This document shows, one piece after another, positions 1 through 22,992 of a stretch of 32,676 nucleotides of DNA. Every line of letters begins with the position of its first letter. Position 1 is the stretch's first letter. This DNA is from a virus. Below the pieces are notes generated by a model. That model worked only from the letters and a program-made list of their open reading frames with translations. It had not been told where the DNA came from and made no database searches. The stretch spans positions 1-32,676 of IMG/VR virus record IMGVR_UViG_3300023179_000321. One strand, written 5' to 3'. The position numbers were made by a program, and so were the translations under genes.

Positions 1-301
1 CGGCATTACCAATAACGCTTGTGTTACGAATCACATCTTTTTCTCCGGTGAGTTCATCGACTTGTTCGAATTCATGAACAGGAAAGCCATACATTTCCCG
101 AAACTGTTTTCGAATCTCGTCCTCATCCCAACCAACTCTTGGAGGTTGATTCAATTCATCCCAAGCATGAACAACCGCTTTACGCAGGTCAATAAACCAT
201 TGTCTGAATTCATCGTCTGTCATCCATTGAATTTGTTCAAACGTCTTGTTTGTTTCGTGATTTAACAGCCAATCGTTTCGTTCATAAAAATGTTTTGTCA
301 T
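1..301 (-). CDS. Conserved-looking phage protein of unknown function (5' part only)
   Basis: The reading frame starts with an ATG at 301-299 and stays open to the left edge, giving the first 100 residues. The ATG overlaps the TGA of the dCMP deaminase gene as ATGA, a sign of translational coupling. The visible part is hydrophilic and rich in Trp and acidic residues, with no signal peptide or membrane segment. It contains the stretches PPRVGWDEDEI and FPVHEFEQVDELTGEKDVIR near its end. I do not recognise a domain. The tight coupling suggests it is co-expressed with the deaminase and the small Cys/His gene upstream. The C-terminal part lies outside the window, so nothing can be said about total length or a catalytic site. 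Confidence 0.75.
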   Translation of the reverse strand, partial: MTKHFYERNDWLLNHETNKTFEQIQWMTDDEFRQWFIDLRKAVVHAWDELNQPPRVGWDEDEIRKQFREMYGFPVHEFEQVDELTGEKDVIRNTSVIGNA

Positions 302-759
302 AATTTCTTTATAGTTATTCCACACTTATATAGGAAATCCAATCCTTTAGTATCTCGGTAATCTTCACCATAAAAAACTTCTTTTATTCCAGATTGATAT
401 ATCATCTTAGCACACTCTAAACATGGACTGCAAGTGATAAATATACTTGCACCATCACCGCTTTCGGTAGACCTTGCTAACTTTGCGATTGCGTTTGATT
501 CTGCATGAAGAACTTCTGGTTTAGTTCTAAATTCAGTAACTTTATCCATATCAAATATGCCAGGCGATATCTCTTTTTGACTAATAAACATATCTTCGCA
601 TTCATTTGTCCAACCACTTGGCATACCATTATATCCAATAGAAATGATGCGGTTATCTTTTACAACAACCGCACCTACCTTCTTTCGCTTTGCGGTACTG
701 AGTTCTGCAAATACTCTTGCAGTCTTCATGTATGCACCGAGATATTTTTCTTTTATCAT
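298..759 (-). CDS. dCMP deaminase (deoxycytidylate deaminase family)
   Basis: This 153-residue protein belongs to the zinc-dependent cytidine/deoxycytidylate deaminase family. The zinc and proton-transfer motif HAE is at residues 85-87 and the second zinc motif PCLEC at 112-116, so H85, C113 and C116 would bind zinc and E87 would be the catalytic acid/base. The N-terminal stretch VGAVVVKDNRIISIGYNGMP is typical of dCMP deaminases. The enzyme converts dCMP to dUMP, feeding thymidylate synthesis during phage replication. T4 has the same activity in gene cd. The start overlaps the stop of the 82-residue gene as ATGA. The length is a little below that of T4 Cd. Allosteric control by dCTP/dTTP is known for the family but cannot be judged here. 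Confidence 0.93.
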   Translation of the reverse strand: MIKEKYLGAYMKTARVFAELSTAKRKKVGAVVVKDNRIISIGYNGMPSGWTNECEDMFISQKEISPGIFDMDKVTEFRTKPEVLHAESNAIAKLARSTESGDGASIFITCSPCLECAKMIYQSGIKEVFYGEDYRDTKGLDFLYKCGITIKKL

Positions 760-1004
760 TCTATAATTCGTTCTCTTTGTTCAAATCGCTTTTCTTGAAT
801 TGTTTTTTCTTTAAATGTTTTTCTTGGGTTTGAACACATGATACATCTAGGATCACCACAGTTCATTGCATGATGTTTTATATATCGATGTGCCTCTAAT
901 ACATCTAATCCGTGAGCTTTTGCAATTTTAACTTGTTTACGAATTGCATTTCCATCTCTCATAATTCTTTTGCTACGTTTTTCTTTATGGTCTTCGCTGC
1001 TCAT
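756..1004 (-). CDS. Small basic protein with a His/Cys cluster, unknown function
   Basis: This is an 82-residue, strongly charged protein. Its N-terminal half is Lys/Arg-rich. The middle holds HHAMNCGDPRCIMCSNPRK, with H44, H45, C49, C54 and C57 spaced so that they could bind one zinc ion. The C-terminal third is a charged helix-like tail. I have the impression that similar CGDPxCxMCxNPRK proteins recur in unrelated phages as uncharacterised proteins, but I cannot verify this here. The stop overlaps the start of the dCMP deaminase gene (ATGA) and a 25-base gap separates it from the PLP-like gene. A nucleic-acid-binding or adaptor role is possible by composition only. Confidence 0.8.
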   Translation of the reverse strand: MSSEDHKEKRSKRIMRDGNAIRKQVKIAKAHGLDVLEAHRYIKHHAMNCGDPRCIMCSNPRKTFKEKTIQEKRFEQRERIIE

Positions 1005-1029
1005 AAATGATTTCCCTTAAACAATTAAA

Positions 1030-1791
1030 CTAAGCTACATTCCAAACTAATGCTCCTTTCTTTCCGTTTGATTTGACAAATTCCCATAACTTAGCATCAT
1101 AATATTTTTCGCTAGGAAATGGGGGTGCGTATTGTTCTTCGATTGGTTGATCATACTTATATGGTGATCGCATTACATTCGCTCTGCCTCTTTCATAGTC
1201 ATTCATCTTATGTCCCACTTCAACTGCAAACGCAGGTACATCAGGAAATGCTAATTGCAATCCACGATTGAGTGTGCCGCTTGATGCGACTGTCCAGATT
1301 TCTGTTGGTTTGATTTTTAGATTTCTTGCAACTTTGATGATAGATGCAAGTACAGTAGAATGTTCAAGACCAAGTGGCAATACTCTACGATTGATTGTAT
1401 CTTCTTCGTAGTATCTTCTAGCTTTTGCTTTCGTTACATTTAACATACCATTCGCTACCCAATGAATTGTACCGCCCATGTCTAAGACTTGCTGCTGATG
1501 CCAAGTAGGTACTGCTCTCTTAGCCATGAAAAATGTTGCTTTCTTTCCATATTTATTACAAACATATGTCAAAGAGATAGGTCCCCATCCAACTTTGTTT
1601 GCACCACCAAAACACCATTCGTTACCTTCGCTTCGTACTAAAAAATCAATGAATCTTATTTTACTTCCATAACCTAACTTATCATCACGCACTACATAAA
1701 ACTCATTGTGTTCTTCAATTACCGGCGGCGGGTTTGGGTCTTCCCACTCTTTTATTGTATCAAGTAATTCTTCAGTTGACAAGTTTAGCAT
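1030..1791 (-). CDS. PLP-dependent enzyme-like protein, tryptophan synthase beta / ACC deaminase fold
   Basis: This 253-residue protein resembles fold-type II PLP enzymes (tryptophan synthase beta, ACC deaminase, D-cysteine desulfhydrase). Near the N terminus GGANKVGWGP places K66 where these enzymes carry the PLP-binding lysine. It is followed by an alternating helix/strand segment (residues 72-112). ASSGTLNRG at 169-177 corresponds to the Ser/Gly-rich phosphate-binding loop. The C terminus ends with PPFPSEKYYDAKLWEF. At about 250 residues it is shorter than bacterial relatives (about 330-400), so it is a compact form. I prefer the ATG at 1791 to the upstream ATG at 1848: it gives a 20-base instead of a 77-base overlap with the preceding gene. 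The substrate is unknown. Neighbouring oxygenase and deaminase genes suggest metabolite or nucleotide chemistry, which is inference. Confidence 0.72.
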   Translation of the reverse strand: MLNLSTEELLDTIKEWEDPNPPPVIEEHNEFYVVRDDKLGYGSKIRFIDFLVRSEGNEWCFGGANKVGWGPISLTYVCNKYGKKATFFMAKRAVPTWHQQQVLDMGGTIHWVANGMLNVTKAKARRYYEEDTINRRVLPLGLEHSTVLASIIKVARNLKIKPTEIWTVASSGTLNRGLQLAFPDVPAFAVEVGHKMNDYERGRANVMRSPYKYDQPIEEQYAPPFPSEKYYDAKLWEFVKSNGKKGALVWNVA

Positions 1792-2866
1792 GTAATTTAT
1801 CTTCTGTTTCAATGTCCACAACAAGATGAATTCTTTCATCGGTGCCATTGTTGACTGCCATATGTGCTTTTCTTGTGTCTAGAAACCAGCACTCACCAGG
1901 TTTCATATGTACCCTTTGTGGTGATCCTTTTGTGTTCCATACAGTAAACGTCATGTTAGGATTTGTTTTGATTGGAAAATGTAATCGTGCTAACTTGCCT
2001 AACGATCCACCAGAATCGGGATCAACTTGATCGGTGTGTCGTTCAAGTTCTCCGCCACCCGGTTTCAACCTCATGAATCTTACACGATGCAGTTTGTCGC
2101 CATAAGGTTTCATCAGCTCACGCACTTCAGGAAAAATTTCAAATAAAGATGTGTCTTGCATGAAGTAGTGATTGTTTTTATGTTCTTCTTTCCATGCATC
2201 GCTCATTTCAATTGGCTTAGTAATGAATGCAGGATCAGAAGAATAGCCACGCAATGATAGCGCACCCCATGACTTGTCTTTGTTATAGTTACTATAGTGA
2301 TTTGTGAAAGCAGGTAACTGATTCAATTTTTCTTCAATTTTTGTAATCAGGTTTTGGTCAACATCATCAACTTTTTTGATTGAGAGATAATCAGCCTTGT
2401 CAGGTTGAGGAAACGCTCTTGGCGTTCCCTTGTAGTATACAGCATAAATTTCGCCGTATGTAGTGATCTTGGGACCAACGTAACAAAAGCCTAATTCTTC
2501 CGCTAACTTACAATGATCATCATTCTCCGCCCACACATAGAGCCAAAATGAAGTTCCATTCAGCATCTCAATTTGAGATTTTAATGTAGAAACATTTCCA
2601 ACCAGTTTGCCTATTGTAATATCACCTTTCAATTTCTTTGCAATGACTGTAGAACCATGCATTGTGATATTTGATGAAGATTTGCTAATGAAAACTTCCA
2701 TCATTGCATCACCAAGATTTACAAAAGTTCCTTTATGCAATGATTCAGCAATGTTATTCTTTTTGAATTTCGCAAAAGGAGAAAGCGTATAAGCATTGTA
2801 GTCCTCATACTTTGCTTCTAGACTTTTCAGATAGTCTAGTTCAAATCCATGTTGCCAATCTTTCAT
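1772..2866 (-). CDS. Two-domain protein: GNAT-like N-terminal half, 2OG-Fe(II) oxygenase C-terminal half
   Basis: The protein has 364 residues. The C-terminal half (about 230-355) has a complete 2-oxoglutarate/Fe(II) oxygenase set: H277-x-D279 in ERHTDQ, distal H335 in RKAHMAVNNG, and R345 for 2OG binding. The stretch HFPIKTNP followed by GECWFLDT resembles aspartyl/asparaginyl beta-hydroxylase-type enzymes. The N-terminal half (about 35-150) ends with YVWAENDDHCKLAEELGF and a TYGEIYAVYYKG strand, the layout of the last strands of GNAT acyltransferases, but no clear acetyl-CoA loop (Q/R-x-x-G-x-G/A) is visible. The ATG has a good ribosome site (AGGAGA). The gene follows an 83-base gap and overlaps the PLP-like gene, so the two are probably translated together. 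The hydroxylated substrate is unknown. Confidence 0.82.
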   Translation of the reverse strand: MKDWQHGFELDYLKSLEAKYEDYNAYTLSPFAKFKKNNIAESLHKGTFVNLGDAMMEVFISKSSSNITMHGSTVIAKKLKGDITIGKLVGNVSTLKSQIEMLNGTSFWLYVWAENDDHCKLAEELGFCYVGPKITTYGEIYAVYYKGTPRAFPQPDKADYLSIKKVDDVDQNLITKIEEKLNQLPAFTNHYSNYNKDKSWGALSLRGYSSDPAFITKPIEMSDAWKEEHKNNHYFMQDTSLFEIFPEVRELMKPYGDKLHRVRFMRLKPGGGELERHTDQVDPDSGGSLGKLARLHFPIKTNPNMTFTVWNTKGSPQRVHMKPGECWFLDTRKAHMAVNNGTDERIHLVVDIETEDKLHAKLVN

Positions 2867-3540: not shown

Positions 3541-4182
3541 CTAATTACTAATATTAAACGCAATAGAAATTCTATCTTCGTCAGTTAAATTTGGTGTAAC
3601 ATAATGCTTTAAATTCGAAGTAAACATTAAAACTTCATTTTCTTTAGGAATTATTTCATAAGAAGGGCGTGTATAGTTATTCGTTACAACATCCGAATTA
3701 GAGTTATCATGAGTTCGAGGCAAATAAAAATACAATTTTTCTTCAATCGGACTTTCAATTACTAATGATCCTGCATTTTCAGCAGATTTTGGGACCTTAA
3801 CATAAAAAACTGAAGAAATATAACTAAAAGGATGAATATGAGAAACATTGTATTGCCCTTTTCTGTTGATATTTACCCAAATTCCCGATAGCCTTAAAGG
3901 AACCATTTCATTAATTCCTATAGTATTAGAAAATCCAAGCACAAAAGGTTGAATTTTTTGAAGCCATTCATCAAAAATCATTTTAGTGTGTTTATCATTT
4001 TCCAAATCTAAGGGAAGTTGCCACCCTCCTCGATTACTTCTTATTCTACCTTTAGGAAATTTTTTTTCCAAATCATAACAAAAATCTGTGATATTTTTCA
4101 TTGAATTTTCACTCAAATTCAATGAACTTTTTGCAAAAAAACCAGCAATGATAGGGTTAATTACATCATTTTTAATTTTCAT
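3541..4182 (-). CDS. Putative 2OG-Fe(II) oxygenase (TIGR02466-like family)
   Basis: This 213-residue protein resembles the phage and marine-bacterial putative 2OG-Fe(II) oxygenase family TIGR02466. RGGWQLP occurs near residue 51. The iron-site region SHIHPFS at 114-120 supplies H115 and H117. The strand SSVFYVKVP follows. The C-terminal LMFTSNLKHYVTPN (185-198) gives the distal H193, and DRISIAFN gives R204 for 2OG. The full set is therefore present. Substrates for this family are unknown. The gene has a CGGAG ribosome site and begins three bases after the stop of the related gene at 4186-4791, suggesting an old tandem duplication or paired acquisition. Confidence 0.82.
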   Translation of the reverse strand: MKIKNDVINPIIAGFFAKSSLNLSENSMKNITDFCYDLEKKFPKGRIRSNRGGWQLPLDLENDKHTKMIFDEWLQKIQPFVLGFSNTIGINEMVPLRLSGIWVNINRKGQYNVSHIHPFSYISSVFYVKVPKSAENAGSLVIESPIEEKLYFYLPRTHDNSNSDVVTNNYTRPSYEIIPKENEVLMFTSNLKHYVTPNLTDEDRISIAFNISN

Positions 4183-4185
4183 GTT

Positions 4186-4791
4186 TTATCTCCGTGGATT
4201 AAACGTCATTGTTACAGTAAACATAGGAGAATTAGTTAAATTTGTTAAAATTTTGTGCCTTAGAAATGATCTAAAAACAATTGCTTTATTATTTTCAGTT
4301 GAATGATTAAAATATTTGTAAGAATAATCATTAAAATTTGATTGTTCAATTGGTAACATGTCAAAAGTTTCATTTGGGTTCTGAAAAATAATTGGAGGAC
4401 TAGCATCATTATCTGATAAGAAGTACATAAAACAATATGTGCTTCCTGGATGAAAAGATGTATCCAATCCTTGATTCACATTATATGAACTCAGCCAAAT
4501 ATTTGATGGTAAATATGGAGAATCTGAGCCTAAGATATTATTGTAATCATTAACAAAACTAACCGCTGAGTTGAGAAATGGCACGAATCTTTCATCATTA
4601 TGTAATTCATAAGTATGAATTGTATTATGTATATTGGAAAACCATTCATTTTGTCCAGAACTAAATTTTTCTTCTTTAATTTCTCTTGCCGCAGCATACA
4701 ATTTTTTGGATTCTTCTACAGGCAGAAAATCCTTCTTGTGAAGAATAGTTGTCGGAAAAATTGAATCTAATATCATTCCAGTGTTTTTCAT
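4186..4791 (-). CDS. Divergent 2OG-Fe(II) oxygenase-like protein with a degenerate active site
   Basis: This 201-residue protein has the overall layout of its downstream neighbour: IFPTTILHKKDFLP at the N terminus, TSFHPGSTYCFMYFLS at about 111-126 and FRSFLRHKI at 173-181, ending in MTFNPRR. H114 and H179 can be aligned with iron ligands. However, the first His of the neighbour's HxH motif (H115) corresponds to S112 here, and the 2OG-binding Arg before the last strand is not present. It may use a different ligand set or be an inactive partner subunit. The start codon overlaps the stop of gene 46 (ATGA) and has an AAGGACG ribosome site within gene 46. Confidence 0.65.
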   Translation of the reverse strand: MKNTGMILDSIFPTTILHKKDFLPVEESKKLYAAAREIKEEKFSSGQNEWFSNIHNTIHTYELHNDERFVPFLNSAVSFVNDYNNILGSDSPYLPSNIWLSSYNVNQGLDTSFHPGSTYCFMYFLSDNDASPPIIFQNPNETFDMLPIEQSNFNDYSYKYFNHSTENNKAIVFRSFLRHKILTNLTNSPMFTVTMTFNPRR

Positions 4792-6503
4792 TTTAATATC
4801 GTCCTTGAAAAGTTATTAATTTTTTCAAATTTAACTACATTTGAAAATTTGTCTTGCAAAATATCACCTTTGTGACTTATCACAAACAAATTGGAATCTT
4901 TCAAAAGGTCTAAAATTTTCATTAAGTCTTCTGTTCCATTTGTGTCTAGTGATGAATCGAATATTTCATCTAAAATTAGCAAATTTGTATTTGTGGAATT
5001 TTTTATCTTTGCTACGGCGCGCCATGTTAGCATCAATGCCATATCAATTCTTTGTTTCTCGCCTTCACTAAACGAAGCATAACTAAAATCATCACGATGT
5101 CTAGATTTGATTGTTTCTTTAAACGATTCATCTAAATGAAAATTAACAAAAAAATTCATCGCAGAAAGATATTTGTTAACCAATTTGTTAATAACTGGTA
5201 TATACTGTTTAATAATTTTAGTTTTAATTCCTGTATCTTTTAAAAGATTTGTTGCTGTTTCATAATATAATCTTTCTTCAGAAAGAGTTTTCATATTCAT
5301 TTCTAATTCAACCAATTCTAAATTAAGTGTAACTAATTTTCTATTTTCTTCATTCAAATCATCTTTTGAATTGCGAATACGTTCGATGTCTTTTTTTAGA
5401 GTTTCAATGTATCTCTTTTCAGCAGAAATTTCAGATTGAATTTCAGTTAACTCGGATTTTTTTGTTTCAATTTTTAAAACAAGCTCTTCTATTTCCTCTT
5501 GCCTGATGACTAGTTGATCAACATCATCATTTAATTTTTGAAGTGCATCTTCAACTTCTTTTAGTTTTGTTTTTCTTTCCTGAACAATCACACTTTTGTG
5601 TTCGTGAGGAATACCTTGCTTACATGTTGGACATTCATCATTGATATCATAAAATTCAATATCAGAATTAACTTTAGTTATTGTCTTATCAAGATTATTT
5701 TTTATAGTAGCGAACTTTGTGAGCTTACCATCAATCTTAGATTTGTCTGAAATTTGTGTATAAAGATCAGACAAATTTGTTTGCAAATTTGCTTCTACTG
5801 CTGAACATTGTTCAATTTTAATTTGAGTATTAGCGATTTCGTGTTCTTGCTGTAAAATCTTTGATTCGGTATTTTTCTTTAAGTTTTCAATAAATTGAAT
5901 CTGCATTTGAATTTTTTCAGTCTTCAGGTCAAACGCATATTTTGCTTCAGAGTATTTTTCTTTAAGCAATTGAAACTTTTCTTTTAGAACATTATTCATT
6001 CTAGAAAATATTTGAATATCTAATAAATCTTCAATAATGGCTCTGCGATCTGTTGAAGACAATTGCATAAATGGTGTGAATGATGTGCTACCCAACATCA
6101 CAATTTGAGTAAAAGATTTGTAATTTATTTTTAAAATAAATTTTTCAAGATGTTCTTGATAATCCTTTACTGCTGCCGATTGTTGGACCAATTGTGAATC
6201 ACAATAAATTTCAAAAACATTTGGTTTGATTCCTCTTACAACTTTATATTTTTTACTAAGTGTTTCAAATTCAATTTCAACTAAACAATCTTTTTGATTA
6301 ATTGCATTAACCAATTGAGGTTTATTAATATTTCTAAAAGGCTTTCCAAATAAAACAAAACACAATGCATCAAGCAAGGTTGACTTGCCTGATCCATTCG
6401 ATCCTACAATTAGTGTTGATATTTTAGTTTGAAGATCAATTTGTGTGAAATAATTTCCTGTAGAAAGAAAATTTTTCCACCTTATACTTTGAAAATGAAT
6501 CAT
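4788..6503 (-). CDS. 46: gp46, Rad50/SbcC-like recombination nuclease ATPase subunit
   Basis: The 571-residue protein has the complete SMC-type architecture. Walker A is GSNGSGKST at 34-42. A long coiled coil covers about 180-420 and is interrupted by a zinc-hook CPTC at 291-294. The ABC signature SFSEGEKQR is at 477-485 and Walker B LLILDEIFD at 508-516. The length is close to T4 gp46 (560). With gp47 it forms the nuclease that processes DNA ends for recombination-dependent replication and host DNA degradation. In T4 the 46 and 47 genes are near neighbours. Here an oxygenase gene sits between them. Its start overlaps that oxygenase's stop as ATGA. Confidence 0.96.
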   Translation of the reverse strand: MIHFQSIRWKNFLSTGNYFTQIDLQTKISTLIVGSNGSGKSTLLDALCFVLFGKPFRNINKPQLVNAINQKDCLVEIEFETLSKKYKVVRGIKPNVFEIYCDSQLVQQSAAVKDYQEHLEKFILKINYKSFTQIVMLGSTSFTPFMQLSSTDRRAIIEDLLDIQIFSRMNNVLKEKFQLLKEKYSEAKYAFDLKTEKIQMQIQFIENLKKNTESKILQQEHEIANTQIKIEQCSAVEANLQTNLSDLYTQISDKSKIDGKLTKFATIKNNLDKTITKVNSDIEFYDINDECPTCKQGIPHEHKSVIVQERKTKLKEVEDALQKLNDDVDQLVIRQEEIEELVLKIETKKSELTEIQSEISAEKRYIETLKKDIERIRNSKDDLNEENRKLVTLNLELVELEMNMKTLSEERLYYETATNLLKDTGIKTKIIKQYIPVINKLVNKYLSAMNFFVNFHLDESFKETIKSRHRDDFSYASFSEGEKQRIDMALMLTWRAVAKIKNSTNTNLLILDEIFDSSLDTNGTEDLMKILDLLKDSNLFVISHKGDILQDKFSNVVKFEKINNFSRTILK

Positions 6504-7177
6504 CTAAATTTTGGTCCTTCTACCCAAATCACGATAGATTTTCTAATTCCTTTTGTTACAGGAGATACAGTATGTAAAAGAAAAGAAGGAAAGAGAATTA
6601 CTGTTCCTTTTTTCATAGGAACTTCAACAGGGTTTGATTCTAAAGAAGTATTGATATAAAAACTTCCTCCCTCAAAATCAATACCAGGATGATTAAGAAG
6701 CATAACGAGTGAGAGTTTTCTCATATCATCATTCTGCTTATCTTTGGAAATATTATCTAAACCCATATCCATGTGCCAATTATATGTTCCATTTTCATCA
6801 GCCCTATATTCTGAATATTGAAAAGATGAGTATCCATTCAAATCAAAGGAGTAAAAGTTTTCGTTTAAGTTTTCTATCAGGCCATTAAATCGGTCAAAAA
6901 TCCATATGTTTTCTTCGGTGGGTTCTACAAATGCAACATTGGATCTTCTAACATTCTTTCGCATATTTTCCATGCTTTTAGATAATTCTTCAGAATTTTT
7001 TTCTTCGGATGATCGTACACCAAAAGTCAATCCTGGTTCTAACTTACGATTTTTTTTCGTTAAAAATTCAATATTGGTAATTTCTTCATCGTTGAATACA
7101 TTATCCATCCAACACCAAGATCGCAGAAAATGTTTTCTTTCAAATGGGCTATTAGAAATTCTTTTATATCTACTCAT
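6500..7177 (-). CDS. 2OG-Fe(II) oxygenase, prolyl-4-hydroxylase/PiuC type
   Basis: With the ATG at 7177 the protein has 225 residues. The catalytic set is complete: H135-x-D137 in YNWHMDMG, distal H202 in FPSFLLHTVSP, and R212 for 2OG binding. The GGSFYI strand after the first motif and GTVILFPS before the distal His are typical of the prolyl-4-hydroxylase/PKHD group. The alternative ATG at 7201, which overlaps the gene 47 stop, has no ribosome site. The ATG at 7177 has AAAGG about nine bases upstream, so I prefer it. The gene is inserted between 47 and 46, and its stop overlaps the start of 46. The substrate (protein, DNA base or small molecule) cannot be inferred from sequence. Confidence 0.88.
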   Translation of the reverse strand: MSRYKRISNSPFERKHFLRSWCWMDNVFNDEEITNIEFLTKKNRKLEPGLTFGVRSSEEKNSEELSKSMENMRKNVRRSNVAFVEPTEENIWIFDRFNGLIENLNENFYSFDLNGYSSFQYSEYRADENGTYNWHMDMGLDNISKDKQNDDMRKLSLVMLLNHPGIDFEGGSFYINTSLESNPVEVPMKKGTVILFPSFLLHTVSPVTKGIRKSIVIWVEGPKFR

Positions 7178-7197
7178 AATTTTTAACCTTTCTACAT

Positions 7198-8271
7198 TCA
7201 ATCAAAAGACAAAGATTCTACATAAATTTCTTTCAGCAAATTCTTCAACTTATTTGCTTCTATATTATATAGGCCTGTGGACTCTTGCGAATCTACAAAA
7301 TTAAATAAAATTGTCATTGTGTCTTGAGCCTGATCAACTGCATCGCCTGTTGTTTCGGTAAAAGTTTCAGTAAAGTCCTCAACAATAGAAATGTCAATGG
7401 GCTCAACTTTATAAATTTCGTCTAATAACTTATCAAAAATATAAGGATTTTGTTTATTCAAAACAACAATTTTGATATAACATTCCCTATAAATTTCATA
7501 ATTTTTTTTCTTAATTTCTTCCAACGTTATTTTCGAATCATCATACACAATTTTATGAAAAATTTTATAAGGATTTTTAATGCTTTCAACTTTTAAAGTA
7601 TTTGTATCAAAAATATCAAAATATTTTTGATCACCATAGTCATTCCAAAATAATTCATAAGGAGTACCAACATATAAAATGTTTTCTTTCGTTGATCTTG
7701 TATGAAAATGACCACTGAAAACTTTCTCATAATTTTTTAAAATTTTATGATCACGGCCTTCATGAAACACCATACCTTTGATAACTTCACATCCTTGTAA
7801 TTCAAAATGTCCAGCACAAATTGAAGAGTTTGAGTTGTTTATAAACTCTAAAATTTCTTTCTCATTTTCTTTGCATATCCAAGGAATCATATCAATTTTT
7901 ACGCCATCAATTTCCAACGTTCCGTGTTTTTTCCAGAGAGTTACATTTTTATAGTCTTTCAGAAGAAGTTCTGGCGAATTAATCTCTACACTTTCTCTCC
8001 AAAAGATATCATGATTACCTATCAATGCATGTAATTTAATATTACGTTTTGCACACTCATCAAAAAAGTATCTGCGACTTTCTGTCAACGAAAGAAAATT
8101 GATATATTTTCTACGATCAAATAAATCGCCAAGTTGAATGATTGTTTCTATACCTTCCTTTTCTAGCGTAGGAAAAAATATTTTTGAATAAAACTTTTCG
8201 TAAAAAGAATGGAAAACTTTAGAATCATTTCTAACCCCAAAGTGCGTATCACCTAAAAAACAAATCTTCAT
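7198..8271 (-). CDS. 47: gp47, Mre11/SbcD-like recombination nuclease subunit
   Basis: The 357-residue protein is a calcineurin-type metallophosphoesterase. Its motifs, in order, are GDTHFG (D8, H10), GDLFDRR, GNHD, GHFELQG and SGHFHTRS, which together ligate two Mn ions. The C-terminal 130 residues form the capping and gp46-binding part. The length is near T4 gp47 (339). It is the nuclease partner of gp46 in end resection. The start overlaps the end of the 61-residue gene by 23 bases, and the ribosome site is weak. The gene order 55, small gene, 47 is that of marine T4-like phages. Confidence 0.95.
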   Translation of the reverse strand: MKICFLGDTHFGVRNDSKVFHSFYEKFYSKIFFPTLEKEGIETIIQLGDLFDRRKYINFLSLTESRRYFFDECAKRNIKLHALIGNHDIFWRESVEINSPELLLKDYKNVTLWKKHGTLEIDGVKIDMIPWICKENEKEILEFINNSNSSICAGHFELQGCEVIKGMVFHEGRDHKILKNYEKVFSGHFHTRSTKENILYVGTPYELFWNDYGDQKYFDIFDTNTLKVESIKNPYKIFHKIVYDDSKITLEEIKKKNYEIYRECYIKIVVLNKQNPYIFDKLLDEIYKVEPIDISIVEDFTETFTETTGDAVDQAQDTMTILFNFVDSQESTGLYNIEANKLKNLLKEIYVESLSFD

Positions 8272-11365: not shown

Positions 11366-11394
11366 ATCATAACATAATTTCGGCAAGTTGTCAA
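11366..11394 (-). promoter_or_regulatory. Sigma-70-type promoter for uvsY
   Basis: On the minus strand: TTGACA at 11394-11389, a 17-base spacer, then TATGAT at 11371-11366 (one mismatch to TATAAT). It overlaps the stop codon of gene 3 and gives a leader of about 25 bases before uvsY. It marks the change from late to early/middle transcription. A short inverted repeat (TATGAT/ATCATA) overlaps the -10. Confidence 0.65.
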
Positions 11395-11906
11395 ACCGCT
11401 GAGAATTTATAGTATGTGTAATTAAACGTGACGGTAGATGTTAAAAAGTCTTGTCCTGAAGTTGTGGAAAAGTCAATCCCTCCTAAATCTACAGGAAATA
11501 ATTCTACAAAAGTAGCTTTGTAAATTGGATTATTTGAATTTGATTTTATGAATAGTGTTGCGTCTGATGTGATGTAGGTATCAGAACCTTCTGTTCCAGT
11601 TAAGTTGCCTACTTTATTGTTACCCTCTGGATTACCTAATTGTGTAATCCAATCATACATTTCATACCAAGAACGCATTTCTTCATCAACTATAAATGTA
11701 ACAATCAAATCAGGAAATGTTATAATCGTTCCTGGAATTTTTAATGCTACAGCAGGAGAATTAATAAATGACGATGTTAAAGTAATTCCTGGCAAATTGA
11801 CTGATTGTACAAAAAATGTCAGATTAGGTATTCTATCTAAAACAAAATCAAATTTATTATTTGAAAGAAAACTTTTATTAATAGGGTAAGTTGTAATTTC
11901 TGTCAT
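11391..11906 (-). CDS. 3: gp3-like tail completion / sheath terminator protein
   Basis: The 171-residue protein is close in length to T4 gp3 (176) and sits directly after gene 23, where marine T4-like phages have gene 3. The pattern FDFVLDRIPNLTFFVQSVNLPGI at about 19-41, then IPG and EEMRSWYEMYDWITQLGNP, is shared by tail-tube-type and tail-terminator proteins that form hexameric rings at the end of the tube. It is expected to cap the tail tube before gp15 joins. The late promoter TATAAATA lies 17 bases upstream, and the ribosome site is AAAGGAG. It could instead be a third tube-like paralogue, but position and size favour gp3. Confidence 0.75.
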   Translation of the reverse strand: MTEITTYPINKSFLSNNKFDFVLDRIPNLTFFVQSVNLPGITLTSSFINSPAVALKIPGTIITFPDLIVTFIVDEEMRSWYEMYDWITQLGNPEGNNKVGNLTGTEGSDTYITSDATLFIKSNSNNPIYKATFVELFPVDLGGIDFSTTSGQDFLTSTVTFNYTYYKFSAV

Positions 11907-21684: not shown

Positions 21685-22320
21685 TTATTTGTTAGTATTT
21701 TCAATATTTACCGATAAATCTTGTGGCGCTGGTGCATCTCCCGTTTCGGTTGTCGCCCCCACACTTAAGTGATGATATTGGAAAGTTACAGTAAATTCCT
21801 GAATCGCATCAGTTGTATCATAAGAAAGATCAATTGCTGAAACATCTGTAGGAAATGCTTCTTGTAAAGCATATTGTCTACTAATTGTTCCATCTGTTCT
21901 TAAGTGGCCAATAACAATAGTTGCACGATAATCATCTTCCCTGTCACTATCTCTATCGCCTCTAATTGATTGCTCACCATTTGGATTGTTAATATACTTT
22001 ACCCAATTGTCAAAATATTTACGCATAGTTTGGCCGGCATCATTAATAACAGTTACAGTCCATTCTGCGTATGTTCTATCACCAGGAAGTTTAATTCTTC
22101 TTCCTCTGTATGGAACTTCAATTACACCAACCGAATATGCTGGAATCGCTGCTGATCTACAAAGCAAAGAAAATTGTGATTGCTCGCCAGTTACAACATC
22201 GTTGCCATCAATTGTTGCTATAGTTTCAGGAAAAATCATTACCTTAAAAAGATTAGGCTTAGCACCACCCTTTAATCGTGATCTAAAACTATTAATATTA
22301 AAAAAAGAATCATTTGCCAT
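21685..22320 (-). CDS. 19: gp19-type tail tube protein
   Basis: This 211-residue protein matches T4 gp19 (163 residues) in KPNLFKVMIFP near the N terminus, RRIKLPGDRTYAEWTVTVIND at about 76-96 (T4 MNRKINVAGDRTFDDWTVTVMND), QEAFPTDVSAIDLSYD and IQEFTVTFQYHHL. It carries insertions and a 20-residue C-terminal extension compared with T4. Hexameric rings of gp19 stack to form the inner tail tube. Of the two tube-like genes in the window this one is closer to T4 gp19 in the central motif. The ribosome site is GAGGAAAA. No exact late promoter is seen in the 45-base gap upstream, so it is probably expressed with the gene before it. Confidence 0.9.
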   Translation of the reverse strand: MANDSFFNINSFRSRLKGGAKPNLFKVMIFPETIATIDGNDVVTGEQSQFSLLCRSAAIPAYSVGVIEVPYRGRRIKLPGDRTYAEWTVTVINDAGQTMRKYFDNWVKYINNPNGEQSIRGDRDSDREDDYRATIVIGHLRTDGTISRQYALQEAFPTDVSAIDLSYDTTDAIQEFTVTFQYHHLSVGATTETGDAPAPQDLSVNIENTNK

Positions 22321-22365: not shown

Positions 22366-22992
22366 TTAACTGCTTTTTTTATCATCGCCTGAAACATTTA
22401 CACCTTGTTGCTCAATTGTGAAATAATCATAAGCCCAAGTTACAGTAAATTCTTCGAGTGAATCGGTGTTGTCGTATGACAAATCAATTGTGCTAATGTC
22501 TGTTGGCCAGCAATTGTGTAATTTATAATGATAAGTTACTATACCACCAAGATCATATTGTTTAATATCCAAAAGCAAGAAATCAGTTGGCTGCGAACCA
22601 ACTAATTTTCTTGCTACATCACTATTGAAATTTGTTGACGAATATAGTTCTTGTAACTCTTCAAGTGCTTCACGAATTTTTTGATTTACATCACTTATAA
22701 TAGTAGAAGTCCACTCTGCAAAGGTTCTATCGCCTGCAATCTTGTATCTTCTACCGGCCATAAACGGCACTTCAATTAAACCCAAAGTTGATCCTGGCAA
22801 CTGACCACCTTTACACATGTATTTAAATAGTAATTGTAATTCGGTGGATGCTCCTTGTGCAGTTTGAGATGGATCGAAGGTACTGATCTCAACCTCAAAG
22901 AGATTCGATCTGGCTCCTGATCTAACTGCATTTGTAATGTCAGATAACTTAAATAGTCCCGACGGAATTGATCCAGTATTTGTTGTTGACAT
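22366..22992 (-). CDS. Second gp19-type tail tube protein (paralogue)
   Basis: This 208-residue protein has the same domain plan as its neighbour: RSNLFEVEISTF, GRRYKIAGDRTFAEWTSTIISD, HNCWPTDISTIDLSYDNTD and LEEFTVTWAYDYFTIEQ. The two proteins share the core motifs but differ widely elsewhere, so the duplication is old. The middle region (EALEELQELYSS) is helical, unlike the T4 tube. It lies between sheath and tube genes. It may form part of the tube, a special ring at one end, or a minor variant. The ribosome site is AAAGGAG. A near-consensus late promoter (CATAAATA) is just upstream. Confidence 0.88.
   Translation of the reverse strand: MSTTNTGSIPSGLFKLSDITNAVRSGARSNLFEVEISTFDPSQTAQGASTELQLLFKYMCKGGQLPGSTLGLIEVPFMAGRRYKIAGDRTFAEWTSTIISDVNQKIREALEELQELYSSTNFNSDVARKLVGSQPTDFLLLDIKQYDLGGIVTYHYKLHNCWPTDISTIDLSYDNTDSLEEFTVTWAYDYFTIEQQGVNVSGDDKKSS

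Follow-up and report, generated by a model that had tools for sequence, protein, structure and literature searches.

A predicted PLP enzyme (PALP) and a DNA methyltransferase-like protein (MTase) form the conserved core of a gene block at the left end of the window, i.e. the whole stretch of viral DNA analysed here (32,676 nt). The PALP-MTase pair recurs in distantly related phages and in several gene arrangements, which goes beyond chance. We tentatively suggest, with confidence close to even but short of it, that the block is an arm of a phage DNA-hypermodification module, where the MTase-fold enzyme would link an amino-bearing C3 unit of S-adenosylmethionine (SAM) to a DNA base, to be tailored by the PALP (or by a GNAT or 2OG oxygenase).

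Gene content of the left-end locus

The window is a 32.7 kb fragment of a T4-like myovirus, with a gp55-type sigma factor, SbcC/SbcD (gp46/47), a helicase and UvsY, and with structural and packaging genes (major head protein, portal, sheath, terminase). Apparent tail-tube paralogues are found at 11391-11906, 21685-22320 and 22366-22992, all matching phrog_45. Every gene of interest lies on the minus strand at the left end of the window.

The original prediction described four adjacent genes at positions 1-1791, three of them chained by ATGA overlaps, and this gene set is real. The PALP gene (1030..1791) encodes 253 aa and is followed by the gene for an 82-aa Cys/His protein (756..1004), putatively Zn-binding, with the motif NCGDPxCxMCxNPRK and a match to phrog_4499 (1.6e-8), a family of unknown function. 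The predicted nucleotide deaminase is a dCMP deaminase (298..759; PF00383, E 2.6e-22; phrog_174, 7.7e-49) with HAE and PCxxC motifs. Both ATGA stop/start overlaps are exact in the sequence, at 756..759 between the Cys/His and deaminase genes and at 298..301 between the deaminase gene and the last ORF. The latter (2..301), previously taken for an unknown protein, corresponds to the N-terminal 100 residues of an [S/C]PPY MTase-like protein of ~520 aa, and it went unrecognised because the window end cuts the ORF. The fragment is 89% identical to residues 2-104 of a full-length relative (P0003).

The PALP is coupled upstream too. Its start (1791) lies inside the 3' end of a gene for a 364-aa protein (1772..2866), with an overlap of 20 nt, and this gene is part of the unit, beyond the limits first drawn. 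The protein carries a GNAT-like N-terminal domain (profile-profile match, probability 91.7, E 7.8e-7) and an Asp/Arg-hydroxylase-type 2OG-Fe(II) oxygenase domain, whose PF05118 score is above the cut-off (1.7e-14), with HTD at residue 277 and H near 335 making up the HxD...H motif. Three more 2OG-Fe(II) oxygenase genes are found near the module, at 3541-4182 and 4186-4791 (phrog_81) and at 6500-7201 (phrog_61).

At the C-terminus, the full-length T4-like relatives of the MTase (P0003-P0005, 516-530 aa) carry an N6_N4_Mtase domain that contains a TSPPY motif. PF01555 matches P0005 with E 8.4e-7 (29.6 bits against a cut-off of 26.7), P0003 and P0004 being just below it. Motif I in this group reads DPSSGWGGR(I/L)LG and motif IV TSPPYF. 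Judged by motif I, the xPPY motif IV and the PF01555 score, features of a DNA N4/N6 amino-methyltransferase are thus recognizable in the full-length relatives only, and the MTases match amino-MTase models, not C5 ones. When the alignment of T4-like MTases was searched against PDB sequences, it gave a chance-level match only, and the AlphaFold model of this protein (pLDDT 49.8) was too poor to use.

The definition of the unit as four genes did not hold. In three relatives (L011-L013) the MTase gene comes directly after the PALP gene, with neither the dCMP deaminase nor the Cys/His gene; no dCMP deaminase is found between PALP and MTase in L011-L013 and L015-L017, and the Cys/His gene is kept in part of the T4-like relatives. 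Since both genes are missing in several directly coupled relatives, they are optional, and we rejected them as core parts. The deaminase is an optional neighbour, probably with a role in nucleotide supply. In other relatives extra genes are inserted between PALP and MTase: a cupin, a cytidylyltransferase-like protein and a PfkB-type sugar kinase lie between the Cys/His gene and the dCMP deaminase gene in L014 (9022-10484) and also in L005, L006 and L018. This set, present in many relatives, resembles a split HldE (ADP-heptose) pathway in phage.

The four genes might be an ordinary T4-like auxiliary or nucleotide-metabolism block, neighbours by synteny among close relatives. T4-like phages often carry genes for dCMP deaminase, peptide deformylase and 2OG oxygenases, and the optional presence of the deaminase and Cys/His genes agrees with such a block; the PALP-MTase pair, on the other hand, recurs in unrelated phages in different orders and fusions. 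This explanation stands for the dCMP deaminase and is largely refuted for the pair, and as an account of the whole locus we consider it hardly credible.

The PLP enzyme and its relatives

The Pfam PALP model matches the window protein weakly (E 0.0029, below the cut-off), NCBIfam gives no match to it, and PHROG_7093 matches with 2.2e-26. The AlphaFold model, built from 40 sequences, has a pLDDT of 93 and a PALP fold, bearing out the proposed tryptophan-synthase-beta-type protein and indicating a fold-type II PLP enzyme of the tryptophan synthase beta / PALP superfamily. Its best structural matches are the ACC-deaminase homologue 1j0a (VIA Z 23.3; 3.2 Å over 249) and D-cysteine desulfhydrase 4d8t (VIA Z 22.8; 2.8 Å over 245). 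The likeness to these enzymes is in the fold, whereas identity is only 14-17% and curated family models (NCBIfam, gathering-level Pfam) do not place the window protein among them.

A catalytic lysine (K66) and a phosphate loop had been proposed as retained. The loop (S171-G172) is invariant in the 40 homologues. K66 is not conserved among them and was discarded; the invariant residue is K44 (GYGSK-R; codon at 1660..1662), found in 40/40 homologues and also in the alignment including Bordetella phage CN2, and we predict it to be the Schiff-base lysine for PLP.

The nearest characterised sequence relative is gp52 of phage M6, with 42.4 bits (E 5.5e-10) to the family profile, where the best PALP of the PDB reaches 16.8 bits, and M6 gp52 itself matches PHROG_7093 with 2e-159. 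By these scores the window PALP appears to belong to the PHROG_7093 / M6 gp52 family, with higher similarity to it than to cellular PALPs, although an identity of 23% with the CN2 orthologue of M6 gp52 indicates only a distant relationship. The family is found almost only in viruses. In a scan of genome contigs only 4 of 84,980 cellular genomes had matches, so there is no bacterial pathway context for the PALP. Relatives occur on Parcubacteria MAG contigs L121 (5956-6651; 131 bits to the family profile) and L122, and no MTase of the PALP-partner kind was found near them.

M6 gp52 is reported, in work by Lee et al. in 2021, to be a PLP-dependent decarboxylase of a DNA-tethered amino acid on a modified thymidine. 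It lies in a thymidine-hypermodification gene cluster (5-(2-aminoethyl)deoxyuridine pathway) and shares with the window PALP the fold-type II PALP architecture, PHROG_7093 and a DNA-modification setting. Through the CN2 orthologue alignment, it also shares the lysine (GSK-R), the phosphate loop and the C-terminal PFP..YD.K.W....WN. The Y-x-x-K motif of this C-terminus is likewise seen in PALPs of the ACC-deaminase type, and the kinship with M6 gp52 is distant, so that decarboxylation by the window PALP is a proposal. The pathways differ in their partners: M6 starts from 5-hydroxymethyl-dU with a kinase, aGPT-Pplases and a radical SAM enzyme, whereas the T4-like PALP is paired with an SPPY MTase. 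The M6 step order used here is based in part on the SN1 and M6 gene lists (SN1 cassette, PMC9476957).

Genes for hmdUMP synthase, hmdU DNA kinase, aGPT-Pplase and radical SAM accompany the PLP enzyme in a pathway of this type, and in the 143-kb T4-like relative G001, M6 gp51, 53, 54, 55 and 58 have no significant match. The thymidylate-synthase family (PF00303, which includes pyrimidine hydroxymethylases) was not found in seven relatives of 103-163 kb. A search for HMUDK_hel, run without a positive control, gave no match. The window itself is a fragment. A thymidine pathway of the M6 type was rejected, its partner genes not having been found in the 143-kb relative.

Coupling of the PLP enzyme to the methyltransferase across phages

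A profile search of viral contigs (A3) gave at least 401 PALP relatives, and 80 loci were retained. In all of them (80/80) the fetched region includes a DNA-MTase gene, and in nearly all also a ParB gene. Independent occurrence of the families in other phages, which would have spoken against a unit, is thus not seen for the PALP among the retained loci; it is seen for the MTase, which also occurs without the PALP. The median gap between MTase end and PALP start is 6 nt, with 73 of 75 distances within 200 nt. Arrangements include ParB-MTase-PALP, PALP before MTase, and the two genes on opposite strands (L067, L068). In the T4-like group of the window, the PALP gene lies before that of a divergent MTase, and in L012 and L013 the two share an ATGA overlap.

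In the Erythrobacter phages R6L and ZS04 (P0001) the MTase houses an inserted PALP between its motifs I and IV, and a different PALP subfamily is inserted at the same place in Pseudanabaena phage Pam4 (P0013). A further kind of PALP adjoins the ParB-MTase of Mycobacterium phage AlanGrant. The insertions in the three cultured phages R6L, ZS04 and Pam4 are the only genuine ones; apparent MTase-PALP fusions in five other loci are out-of-frame artefacts of stop-to-stop reading and were discarded. R6L also has a PAPS-reductase/PP-loop-like gene (gp7; L001, 2485-3528) that lies a few genes away from the one for its ParB-MTase-PALP protein and might feed another modification or a sulfur step.

The PALP and the MTase very probably act in one pathway, and this pathway probably modifies DNA. 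Modification of another nucleic acid than the phage genome (tRNA, rRNA or mRNA), for example by an RNA mark carrying 3-amino-3-carboxypropyl (acp), seems to us very improbable: acp groups do occur in RNA and class I MTase folds such as TYW2 can transfer them, but the MTases found here match DNA methylase families (PF01555, phrog_498, phrog_12517) and are fused to or adjoin ParB-type domains. The earlier idea of an undescribed DNA-modification unit with an amino-acid-type PLP enzyme and oxygenases gains support from comparative genomics, with PALP and MTase as its core.

Homologous ParB and MTase regions, with the motifs DPFAGGSVRG and CPPYxDLEVYSDD, are found in the phage ParB-DNA methylases Enterococcus phiFL3A gp36 and Listeria B054 gp77. 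These differ in being without a PALP, AdoMet decarboxylase (AdoMetDC) or GNAT partner and are possibly plain methyltransferases.

Alternative partners and proposed chemistry

T4-like relatives without the PALP have either a GNAT acetyltransferase of ~143 aa at its position or the GNAT-like/oxygenase fusion alone. Upstream sequence was long enough in 77 T4-like MTase loci: the PALP is present in 42, the stand-alone GNAT in 26 and the fusion only in 9. PALP and stand-alone GNAT are never found together (0/77), and no locus lacks all three (0/77).

A second kind of partner appears at the PALP position in a sister MTase clade, where 38 MTases have an AdoMetDC gene directly downstream. A search for phage AdoMetDC from P0009 alone yielded one relative and was too narrow, so the survey used a profile search from the ZRG1-type ParB-MTase, together with Pseudomonas phage ZRG1 itself. 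The ZRG1 AdoMetDC matches PF02675 with 1.6e-23 and is over the cut-off of an NCBIfam equivalog. In all AdoMetDC-linked MTases (38/38) position 6 of motif I is Asp and position 9 is F/I/L (AGD[ST]VFG), versus Gly and Arg at those positions in all PALP-linked MTases of the survey (86/86; GG[SP]VRG). L200, at one point an exception to this rule, had been judged by the wrong one of its two MTases; the MTase adjacent to AdoMetDC fits. Because the AdoMetDC-linked enzymes form a single clade (support 100), the switch counts as one event followed by conservation, despite the 38 concordant cases. Judged from the residues, an Asp able to bind an amine and the loss of an Arg able to bind a carboxylate are what would be predicted for use of decarboxylated SAM and hence for aminopropyl transfer. 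In one T4-like relative with the GNAT-like/oxygenase fusion and without the PALP, an AdoMetDC gene (G009:C1:20129-20458) lies ~6 kb from the MTase, a loose link.

Of 43 partnerless MTases, 34 likewise carry the motif-I Arg, and it occurs in the partnerless relative of Vibrio phage 2.058.O, so Arg alone is no marker of acp transfer. No recurrent tailoring enzyme was found downstream of the partnerless ParB-MTases, where mostly terminase and other phage genes occur, and these enzymes may be plain methyltransferases. That most of them share the motif of the PALP-linked enzymes would suit a module that is throughout a plain protective DNA methyltransferase, with PALP, AdoMetDC and GNAT as separate metabolic or anti-host genes accumulating nearby (lowering host SAM, altering amino-acid pools). 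Viral speD has indeed been interpreted as a metabolic gene taken from the host (PMC2186209). Such an accumulation leaves unexplained the PALP inside the MTase domain of three cultured phages, the 80/80 linkage in varied arrangements, and the exact coincidence of the altered SAM motif with the AdoMetDC clade, and we regard it as improbable.

For the hypermodification module, we propose the following chemistry, in which our confidence lies somewhat under even. The MTase-fold enzyme would bind SAM and move acp, not methyl, onto an exocyclic base amine in DNA, with N4 of cytosine as a first guess from the TSPPY motif. The product would be an alpha-amino acid tethered to DNA. The PALP could form an external aldimine with this amino acid via K44 and then decarboxylate it, in the way reported for M6 gp52, leaving a positively charged N-(3-aminopropyl) base. 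In relatives with the other route, the phage AdoMetDC would act on SAM first and the aminopropyl group would be transferred afterwards. GNAT and 2OG-oxygenase partners may acylate or hydroxylate the side chain, and the benefit would be an escape from restriction and other DNA-targeting defences.

The coupling may also be real and the acp/aminopropyl detail wrong. DNA hypermodification would then involve another group: the MTase-fold enzyme would leave a plain methyl mark or draw on another SAM derivative, and an amino acid would be added or reshaped by the PALP through some other PLP reaction (beta-replacement with serine or phosphoserine, racemisation, deamination). The PALP-MTase coupling and the domain insertion agree with this too, the PALP fold is nearest to deaminases and desulfhydrases, and motif I is the same in partnerless MTases. 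An AdoMetDC or a GNAT at the PALP position suits an amine-bearing C3 unit better, and we consider a different group rather unlikely.

For the logic of altered-SAM transfer, CmoX is a direct precedent. This phage DNA MTase transfers carboxymethyl from the Cx-SAM made by phage CmoA, and ParB is often nearby (PMC12783734). The CmoA-CmoX-CmoY system of Synechococcus phage S-B43, which makes carboxymethylcytosine (PMC12783734), likewise combines an MTase-fold enzyme, an altered SAM from a neighbouring enzyme, tailoring enzymes and ParB neighbours. It differs in its enzymes: CmoX belongs to the C5-MTases and takes Cx-SAM as donor, and CmoY is a ligase that depends on ATP, whereas the enzymes described here are of the amino-MTase type, with PALP, AdoMetDC or GNAT. 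In the literature searched we found no description of a PALP-MTase or AdoMetDC-MTase pair in phage DNA modification. More tentatively still, phages may widely write C3 amino units (acp or 3-aminopropyl) on DNA bases by two decarboxylation routes with optional acylation or hydroxylation, which would be the first DNA aminopropylation or aminocarboxypropylation.

Hypermodification of phage DNA protects the genome from restriction and from further defences, and it also yields new nucleic-acid enzymes. Such hypermodification is already known, and the PALP-MTase module would be a new variant of it. The pair, of which we found no description, is encoded by a large group of phages (a single scan gave at least 401 viral stretches with a PALP), and related MTase-fold enzymes may use decarboxylated SAM. 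The existence of cultured carrier phages makes the proposal directly testable; besides R6L, ZS04, Pam4 and AlanGrant, the PALP type is carried by Microcystis phage Mae-JY30 and Mycobacterium phage Vincenzo, and the AdoMetDC type by ZRG1. If a C3 amino unit is indeed attached instead of methyl, the result would be a new class of DNA bases and a set of enzymes for coupling amines to DNA, and some of the viral speD genes now assigned to host metabolism would serve DNA modification.
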